Of a stretch of 37,655 bases of DNA, positions 3,349 through 37,655 are shown piece after piece; positions within the stretch are counted from its first letter, which is position 1, and every line of letters begins with the position of its first letter. The translations under genes were made by a program, and so were the position numbers. Source of the DNA: Candidatus Cloacimonas sp. (GTDB taxonomy: Bacteria; Cloacimonadota; Cloacimonadia; Cloacimonadales; Cloacimonadaceae). The notes beneath the pieces were generated by a model. The model did not search any database and had not been told where the DNA came from. It saw only the letters and a program-made list of their open reading frames with translations. The DNA is taken from positions 1-37,655 of the forward strand of contig JBDKSF010000032.1 in the NCBI GenBank assembly GCA_039680785.1, given 5' to 3'.

Positions 3349-3528
3349 GTTTTTAGCCACCGAAGGCACCGAGGTTACCGAAGGCACGGAATTTAGATTG
3401 TGCAGATTTAATTTTAGCCACCGAAGGCACCGAGGTTACCGAAGGCACCGAAGAAATAACTAAGAACTTTGAACTTTGAACTTTGAACTTTGAACTTTGA
3501 ACCCCTGCACTTTGAACTACGAACTTTG
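3349..3528. repeat. Right copy of the direct repeat flanking the DUF cassette
   Basis: 180-base direct copy of 1655-1828, with the same order of blocks and nearly identical text; the copies differ mainly in the number and phase of GAACTTT units. Its right end overlaps the last codons of thiD: the thiD stop codon (3517-3519) lies in the CTACGAACTTTG part of the repeat. Confidence 0.9.
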
Positions 3529-4305
3529 CACTCCTATTCCCTGATCTTGCGGATAAATTTTGGCATTATAGGCATCAAAAAGTGCACGCACAAAGTTAGA
3601 TGCCTCGGTAAATGCTTCAATCGGATCTTTTCCCAGAGCCAAAGAACAAGTAAAAAAGGTGGAAAACACACAACCCGTTCCGTGCGTATATTTCCATTTA
3701 CGACGCGGAAAATGGAAAATAGTTACTTCCTTTTTTTTTATCATAGCTTCTTGAATATTATCTGTTTTGCCGTGCCCTCCAGTAAGCAAAACAGTTACTC
3801 CAGTTTTTTGGCTAAGTTCTTTTCCTACCTCAATCGCCGTCTCAAAATCAGTTGTATCTTTTCCTGTTAACAAGGATAGTTCAGGCAAATTAGGAGTGAT
3901 AAAATCAACCAGATTCAGCAGTTGCAGAAATTCAGGCAGGGCTGATTCAGTCAAAAATGCCTTCCCTTTGGTTGGAGCAAAAACCGGATCCACAATAATT
4001 TTACGCTTTGGTTTTCGGGACAGAGTGTTTGCCAGAAGATTAACCTGTTCAACGCTGCATAAAGCACCTATTTTGCAATATTGAACTTTATCAGAAAGCG
4101 CTATTTTGCGAATACCGGCTTCAAAGTTCTGGATATTTAAGGGAATGATTTCTTCCACTCCTTTTTCGCTTTGAATGGTTAATCCGCTACAACAAAAAAC
4201 AGGAGCAAACCCCAAGCCCAAAGTCATTATATAGTCCAGTTCCAAACCCGTATGGAAGGTAGGATCTCTGGGTTCAATAAATGCCAGATTGGTTCGTAAT
4301 TGCAT
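3517..4305 (-). CDS. thiD: Hydroxymethylpyrimidine/phosphomethylpyrimidine kinase (ThiD)
   Basis: 262 residues, ribokinase fold. ThiD phosphorylates HMP and HMP-P to HMP-PP for thiamine synthesis. Supporting motifs: IIVDPVFAPTKG (about 103-114), DFITPNLPELSLLTG (about 134-148), VLLTGGHG, and the anion-hole/active-site motif HGTGCVFST, which keeps the Cys. The N-terminus is unusual. Instead of the usual GSDSSGGAGIQADLKT substrate loop it reads EPRDPTFHTGLELDYIMTLG, so the Gly-Gly-Ala is lost. The last residues (VQSS) and the stop come from the flanking direct repeat, so the original C-terminus may have been replaced. It is the last gene of the thi operon, three bases after thiC. Divergent substrate binding is possible. 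Confidence 0.85.
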   Translation of the reverse strand: MQLRTNLAFIEPRDPTFHTGLELDYIMTLGLGFAPVFCCSGLTIQSEKGVEEIIPLNIQNFEAGIRKIALSDKVQYCKIGALCSVEQVNLLANTLSRKPKRKIIVDPVFAPTKGKAFLTESALPEFLQLLNLVDFITPNLPELSLLTGKDTTDFETAIEVGKELSQKTGVTVLLTGGHGKTDNIQEAMIKKKEVTIFHFPRRKWKYTHGTGCVFSTFFTCSLALGKDPIEAFTEASNFVRALFDAYNAKIYPQDQGIGVQSS

Positions 4306-7039: not shown

Positions 7040-7090
7040 TTGTATGTATGAGCTTTATCCTTCGATGGCTAAATGAGTGGTCTATAATGT

Positions 7091-7170
7091 CATCTTCCTC
7101 GCGCCGGTATTATCCGGATCAGGTTCGAAGGGTATAATCTCAGCCGGAATATTTTCCAGCACCCCTGTCT
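7091..7170 (-). promoter_or_regulatory. TPP riboswitch (Thi box)
   Basis: The minus strand shows the conserved TPP aptamer in order: GGGGTGCTGG, then GGCTGAGA (pyrimidine-sensor loop), ACCCTTCGAACCTGATC, then CCGGATAATACCGG and GCGAGG closing the 3' side. It lies about 80 bases upstream of thi4 and just after the promoter. TPP binding should lower expression of the whole thi operon. Confidence 0.98.
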
Positions 7171-7177
7171 TTATGGC

Positions 7178-36654: not shown

Positions 36655-36785
36655 GCCACCGAATCCACAGAAAAGATTTCCCGCAGATTACGCTGATTTG
36701 TTCTCACGCAGATAACGCAGATTACGCAGATTTAATTTTAGAAACAAGGATTTAAGGATTATAGGATTTAGAGGATTTTTTAAGA
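36655..36785. repeat. Phrase repeats upstream of the dapA promoter
   Basis: In order: CCACCGAATCCACAG, GCAGATTACGCTGATTTG, CACGCAGATAACGCAGATTA, CGCAGATTTAATTTTAGAAA, then CAAGGATTTAAGGATTATAG and GATTTAGAGG. These match the phrase families near thiD, thi4 and nth. Similar text recurs at 37050-37110 and 37310-37410. No gene. Confidence 0.75.
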
Positions 36786-36820
36786 TAACAGGATATGAAC
36801 ACGATATAGAAATAATGGAG

Positions 36821-37031
36821 GGTTGACGTCCTCGTCAACCACAACAAACAAACTATCAAGCTTGTATGAAATAATGCGGAAACTATATAAATCAAGCTGT
36901 TATAAAATAATGCGGAAACTACATAAATCAAGCTTGTATGAAATAATGCGGAAACTACATAAATCAAGCTTGTATGAAATAATGCGGAAACTTGATAACT
37001 CGGTTGTCAGGGGAACGACGAGATGTCGTTC
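36821..37031. repeat. Composite hairpin / 36-bp repeat / hairpin element, copy 1
   Basis: Hairpin GGTTGACG-TCCT-CGTCAACC (36821-36840), a short A/C-rich link, then 36-base tandem units starting ATCAAGCTTGTATGAAATAA at 36855, 36891, 36927 and a 30-base partial at 36963. A TTGATAACTCGGTTGTCAGG link and hairpin GAACGAC-GAGAT-GTCGTTC (37013-37031) close it. Total 211 bases. The units abut without spacers. One plus frame is open through the repeats (12 codons per unit) but has no ribosome binding site and begins in the first hairpin. Confidence 0.9.
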
Positions 37032-37148
37032 TTCCTTTGGATTATCTTCTCTCAAAGATTGCGCAGATTTATTCTCACGCAGATAACGCAGATTACGCAG
37101 ATTTAATTTTAAAAACAAGAATATTCACAAGGTGGTAAAATATTGGAG

Positions 37149-37287
37149 GGTTGATGTCCTCGTCAACCACAACAAACAAACTATCAAGCTTGTATGGAAT
37201 AAAGCGGAAACTACATAAATCAAGCTTGTATGAAATAATGTGGAAACTTGATAACTCGGTTGTCAGGGGAACGACGAGATATCGTTC
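37149..37287. repeat. Composite hairpin / 36-bp repeat / hairpin element, copy 2
   Basis: Same layout as copy 1 but with one full unit (37183-37218) and one 30-base partial (37219-37248). Total 139 bases, exactly 72 (two units) shorter than copy 1. The left hairpin has one G-T wobble and the right hairpin has lost its innermost pair. Confidence 0.9.
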
Positions 37288-37433
37288 TTCCTTTGGATTA
37301 TCCTCTCACAGATTATACAGATTCCACAGATTTATTTTCACGCAGATTGCGCTGATTACGCAGATTTAATTTTAGAAACAAGGATTTAAGGATTATAGGA
37401 TTTAGAGGATTTTTTTAGAAACCAGGATTTGAA

Positions 37434-37543
37434 GCCCTGAGGGCGACACAATCATAGCGATGGTGGCGTAAGCCCCTCGAAATTAAACACAAAATGAAAA
37501 AAGTCCCAGCGGGACGACAGATTTAAGCGACGGGTTTTAACCC
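37434..37543. repeat. Palindrome mosaic between composite copies 2 and 3
   Basis: GCCCTGAGGGC (37434-37444), then GTCCCAGCGGGAC (37503-37515; followed by six Ts on the minus strand) with GACAGATTTAAGCGA, then CGGGTTTTAACCC (37531-37543). The last two palindromes are shared with 7385-7530 and 8041-8195 but in swapped order. Confidence 0.85.
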
Positions 37544-37561
37544 AGCGCAAAAATATTGGAG

Positions 37562-37655
37562 GGTTGACGTCCTCGTCAACCACAACAAACAAACTATCAA
37601 GCTTGTATGGAATAAAGCGGAAACTACATAAATCAAGCTTGTATGAAATAATGTG
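37562..37655. repeat. Composite hairpin / 36-bp repeat element, copy 3 (cut by window end)
   Basis: Left hairpin (37562-37581), one full unit (37596-37631) and 24 bases of the next unit before the window ends. Its units match those of copy 2 more closely than copy 1 (TATGGAATAAAGCGG in the first unit, AATGTG in the second). Confidence 0.9.

Follow-up and report, generated by a model that had tools for sequence, protein, structure and literature searches.

Three copies of a hairpin-bounded element at the end of the window

The right end of the window, that is, of the whole 37,655-nucleotide stretch of DNA analysed here, raises the question of what kind of element is built from a hairpin, a series of 36-bp units and a second hairpin, and whether the variable number of units is what defines it. 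This three-copy structure, first noticed in a sequence-only reading, was confirmed by reading the sequence directly and by independent repeat finding. All copies lie on the forward strand, with their GGA foot and hairpin 1 (GGGTTGACGTCCTCGTCAACC) starting at 36817/36820, 37145/37148 and 37558/37561, respectively. Hairpin 1 is common to the three copies and hairpin 2 is found in both complete ones. Copy 1 (36817..37035) is 219 bp long, which corresponds to the base form plus three units. It consists of the GGA foot, hairpin 1 (36820..36840; arms GGTTGACG and CGTCAACC, loop TCCT), in which covariation was detected, a spacer with four 36-bp units (36855..36998, starting at 36855, 36891, 36927 and 36963) and hairpin 2 (37010..37035), in which GAACGAC and GTCGTTC are followed by the inverted foot TTCC and which was terminator-like in a consensus scan. 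Copy 2 (37145..37291) is 147 bp long, the base form plus one unit, with units at 37183 and 37219 and hairpin 2 at 37266-37291. Copy 3 (37558..37655) has a unit at 37596 and is cut by the contig end inside its second unit.

Measured from hairpin 1 through hairpin 2, copy 1 spans 216 nt and copy 2 spans 144 nt; the two thus differ by exactly 72 nt, or two 36-base units, as the first reading had it. Its count of three full and one partial unit against one full and one partial unit becomes four against two units here, a slightly different last unit having been scored as partial; copy 3 holds at least one. Copies 2 and 3 look like a recent block duplication, because they are 99% identical over 106 comparable nucleotides. 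No exact sequence overlap was found that would join copy 3 to contig C63. Repeat finding also revealed a flanking dispersed repeat module (ACGCAGATTACGCAGATTT..AAACAAGGATTTAAGGATTATAGGATTTAGAGGATTT, strand not assigned) at 36684..36799, with further copies at 37055-37170 (65%, extending into element copy 2) and 37318-37433 (90%).

The element is dispersed in the home genome and in two relatives

The home genome (G000) is a Cloacimonas-group draft of 2.07 Mb in 122 contigs. Searching it with the hairpin 1 pattern, at most one mismatch being allowed, gave 76 matches and none for the backwards-read control, and 79 hairpin 1 matches were counted among the stretches fetched from this genome, so that the total is about 75-80 copies. 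Their hairpins are conserved and their boundaries fixed, which makes the element a defined cassette and not random satellite DNA; this had been claimed from the window, with a lack of further copies named as what would speak against it.

A covariance model built from 41 copies led, at E<=1e-4, to 105 matches in the home genome, a number in which the same copies are also counted on the reverse strand, 34 in the congener G001 and 19 in the complete congener genome G008 (2,246,820 bp), which is presumably Ca. Cloacimonas acidaminovorans. The same search gave no match in six other Cloacimonas members. At E<=0.01, G001 and G008 had 40 and 36 matches, and only one marginal match was obtained from 32 genomes outside the genus. 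The exact pattern was absent from viral contigs, phages and plasmids, and a collection of genome contigs contained it in two contigs only, both UBA5835. Mean identity among aligned copies is 80% within G000, 70% within G001 and 62% within G008, and the family appears amplified and comparatively uniform in the home genome. One genome rich in copies, one with a moderate number, one with old and diverged copies and six without any provide a natural comparison for tracing the mobilising enzyme. Several assembly contigs end within element copies, and the element therefore probably accounts for some of the contig breaks in this assembly.

The number of 36-bp units is a secondary feature

Units were counted in 66 complete copies. 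A single unit is present in 58 of them, whereas five carry one extra unit, two carry three and one carries five, each step in spacer length being 36 bp. The window holds a rare expanded form, the usual genome copy having one unit. The sequence-only reading had taken the internal 36-bp VNTR as the defining feature; since 58 of 66 complete copies are single-unit, it is a secondary one and the number of units is not definitional. Copies elsewhere show other tandem registers, of 96, 113 and 116 bp, which use other parts of the element. Slippage or unequal recombination would duplicate the spacer unit in a few copies that were already dispersed, and the same processes would tandemly duplicate whole elements and other segments. 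It is very improbable that the family consists of satellite or VNTR DNA only, produced by local slippage expansion without transposition: such an origin would explain the arrays in these registers and in that of 36 bp, as well as the near-identical block duplication in the window, but not some 80 fixed-end copies, mostly single-unit, dispersed over dozens of contigs.

The length of the unit had also suggested a CRISPR link. This length is the one trait that a degenerate CRISPR-like array would account for, whereas the units are contiguous without spacers, variable in sequence and enclosed in a hairpin-bounded element, and we give this reading practically no credence. The hint of coding capacity seen in a unit made of whole codons was likewise abandoned, as copy lengths fall into all three modulo-3 classes and the best frame is stop-free in only 24 of 42 cases.

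The two ends are inverted relatives around a spacer of conserved length

The base form, from GGA to TTCC, is 110-114 bp long in 54 of the 56 home-genome base-form copies measured from GGA to TCC. Copies in G008 are mostly 107-112 bp long despite a differing spacer sequence. Read inwards, GGA-GGGTT-GACGTCCTCGTC-AACCA forms the left end, and GGA-AGAAC-GACGTCCTCGTC-GTTCC the right one. Ungapped comparison of the end modules (GGAGGGTTGACGTCCTCGTCAACCA against the reverse-complemented GGAAGAACGACGTCCTCGTCGTTCC) gave 17 identical positions out of 25, all 12 central positions among them (p 3.5e-5 against shuffles). The two ends are thus inverted relatives of the general form GGA-5nt-GACGTCCTCGTC-5nt, and for this reason the covariance model matches the same copies full length on both strands, with reverse-strand E values down to 1.7e-10. 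The core is common to both hairpins, the basal stems are not. The ends of the G008 copies (CCGGAAGGTTGATGTCCTCGTCAAC.. and ..GAACGACGAGGACATCGTTCTTCCGG) keep the same design around another spacer of about equal length, and the foot is GGAG or GGAA (GGAR) in nearly all copies.

Conservation peaks at the ends, reaching 93% in hairpin 1 and being high in the arms of hairpin 2, compared with 78% in the spacer unit, and it declines beyond the A-rich stretch that precedes GGA and the CTTT that follows TTCC. A covariance analysis of the hairpins, which the first reading had proposed, showed that the hairpin 1 column pair 18-23 is G-C in 22 sequences and C-G in 10, and that the change from GACGTCCTCGTC to GACCTCCTGGTC is a frequent compensatory swap. 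Double-change cells numbered 13 against 6.0 expected, a value reached by none of 500 shuffles, although the count is inflated by related copies and part of the signal comes from a single pair. This covariation supports conservation of the hairpin, short of proof. An internal spacer stem (TATCAAG/CTTGATA) that a consensus-like copy forms when folded was rejected, being missing from many copies and from the consensus fold.

These properties could also be expected from a selected functional non-coding RNA or a protein-binding array, such as an mRNA stabiliser, a terminator or a nucleoid or gyrase site, in which the units would be repeated binding sites. The hairpins are conserved and partly covarying, the consensus-like copy folds well as DNA (z of -4.7 and -6.3 on its two strands) and both complete copies in the window have a terminator-like hairpin 2. 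That much of the structured RNA with protein-binding sites envisaged by the sequence-only reading stood, and nothing further specific was found in its favour. An Rfam search of the window and element region, permissive threshold included, gave no element match; moreover, orientation and distance to genes are inconsistent, the spacer differs from species to species and most copies are single-unit. We consider such a primary function unlikely, though with some chance of being right; a mobile repeat with a secondary cellular use is possible.

The copies lie between genes and show no target duplication

Nearly all copies (64 of 65) are intergenic, in mixed orientation to the flanking genes, and the sole gene overlap concerns a 121-codon ORF on the opposite strand. 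On contig C68, a block of about 760 bp lies between two conserved genes and holds two copies of the element and a fused partial third, along with other repeats. In G001, the orthologous site has the two genes side by side and no such block. This was the only empty orthologous site seen, and the other repeats are absent there too, hence the comparison leaves the exact element junction undefined. The ppdK/gspF site gave no empty-site comparison, synteny being broken there in the relatives. A special recombination hot spot upstream of dapA, as once suggested for the window copies, does not agree with some 80 sites in the genome or with the dapA upstream region of G001, which has no element nearby.

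Target duplication had been put forward as something to look for at the insertion sites, and flanking direct repeats of k = 4-8 were no more frequent than in shuffled pairings in any of G000, G001 and G008. This result counts against a MITE of the DDE type and would fit Y1-type movement. A MITE-like element derived from a cut-and-paste (DDE) insertion sequence, for which GGA..TCC would represent the terminal inverted repeats, would share with our element its short length, non-coding nature, inverted ends and many copies. However, the hairpins at both ends are unneeded by DDE elements and no autonomous partner was seen among the loci examined, so that, together with the target-site data, we hold this origin to be improbable.

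The element resembles REPINs and BIMEs but has another foot

Among the options offered by the sequence-only reading, a non-autonomous mobile element is the best supported, and the dispersed paired-hairpin repeat is probably mobile. The explanation that we favour, and consider likely, is that of a non-autonomous, REPIN/BIME-like repeat for which no RAYT was identified, its spacer growing by ordinary tandem duplications. Its unit is made of two imperfect inverted palindromes about 110 bp apart, with a GGA(A/G) foot outside each. A RAYT-type Y1/HUH transposase would move the copies in trans as single-stranded hairpin DNA, this single-strand-specific HUH enzyme recognising foot and hairpin at each end; the length of the spacer would matter and its sequence would matter little.

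REPINs are inverted REP doublets whose spacing is fixed, at 71 or 110 bp in SBW25, and in which spacer length is kept rather than sequence (Bertels and Rainey 2011, PMC3116915). The element resembles REPINs and BIMEs in having an inverted palindrome pair as one unit (here the 17/25 end match and the both-strand model matches), in its fixed spacing, high copy number and extragenic location (110-114 bp, about 80 copies, 64/65 intergenic), in forming tandem copy clusters that include flanks and in conserving spacer length above spacer sequence. In contrast, its foot is GGAR, whereas that of REPs is GTAG or GTGG in the literature (PMC2817692, PMC6006769, PMC8266576), its hairpins share the core and not the basal stems, some copies have a spacer VNTR, and no cognate RAYT lies near it, the sole Y1/RAYT gene found in the draft home genome adjoining another family. 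The GTAG foot and an association with RAYT were looked for and not found, and for this reason we do not class the element as a canonical REPIN.

CGTC-tagged REPs also occur without a dedicated transposase (Di Nocera 2013, PMC3733652). Like them, the element forms dispersed palindromes and frequent dimers with no dedicated transposase identified; unlike them, it has neither an unpaired CGTC tag nor a CCA tail, CGTC being inside its stem. No REP/REPIN-like repeats were reported for Cloacimonadota in the literature searched. A family that combines REPIN anatomy with another foot, and for which no cognate RAYT was found, is relevant to the origin and persistence of tag-variant, transposase-less REP families.

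A RAYT gene of the home genome adjoins a different hairpin family

In G000, a single Y1 transposase gene was detected (C77:15835-16182). NCBIfam NF047646 (81 bits against a cut-off of 80) and a weak resemblance to the solved TnpA-REP structure 4er8 class it as a RAYT. Several tandem inverted hairpin pairs of a different family (GTACCGGCGCTCGCTGAGCGCC..GGCGGAACGGCGTCCGCCAGTAC) flank the gene (L065 6660-7829); this family has a GTAC foot and a period of 65-66 bp and is also present elsewhere in G000. This family is similar to our element in its order of hairpin, AT-rich linker and inverted hairpin, in its tandem arrangement and in its inverted tags, but its sequence is unrelated, its foot is GTAC and it physically adjoins the RAYT gene. 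The home genome thus holds a RAYT with another inverted-hairpin family in the same layout as the element, and the RAYT and its GTAC hairpin pairs are likely to be a REPtron in Cloacimonas, with an unusual foot.

None of the RAYT loci retrieved from G000 and relatives had a significant match to the element model nearby, and RAYT matches were obtained in five of the six congeners without element copies. The cognate enzyme may have been lost or may be absent from the draft assembly. The RAYT genes of G008 (L106) and G001 (L107) are located between long repeats (GAAGTTTTGACTCTAAACCGAT.. and ..GCTCGGTTTAGAGTTAAAAC), also tandem beside them, in the manner of TIR-flanked Y1 transposases.

The element could instead belong to a separate class of paired-hairpin mobile repeats with a GGAR foot, moved in trans by a non-RAYT enzyme and having a functionally tuned number of 36-bp units, for instance for end geometry or as repeated binding sites; we attach a low probability to this proposal.

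Neighbouring repeats and other features of the window

A second dispersed module (GTCCCAGCGGGACGACAG..GCGACGGGTTTTAACCCGGCG) is often located directly upstream of the element; it was seen in the window at 37502-37547 on the reverse strand, and in L061 (2933-3112) and L063 (10761-10806). Its two hairpins and the linker resemble those of the Rfam family RF01687 (Acido-Lenti-1), with scores of 25.7-34.4 bits against a gathering threshold of 37 bits, and RF01687 RNAs may themselves represent a dispersed repeat of the REP-like kind or be related to one. A further hairpin family (GTAGCCGGAGGAC..GTCCTCCGGCTACA) directly adjoins element copies, in L120 (5951-6023) and, after the element, in L172. The window also has short tandem repeats with units of 7-8 bp (CACTTTTC, GAACTTT) at 532-722, 1764-1866 and 3464-3532, and a TPP riboswitch on the reverse strand at 7078-7176 exceeds its Rfam gathering score.
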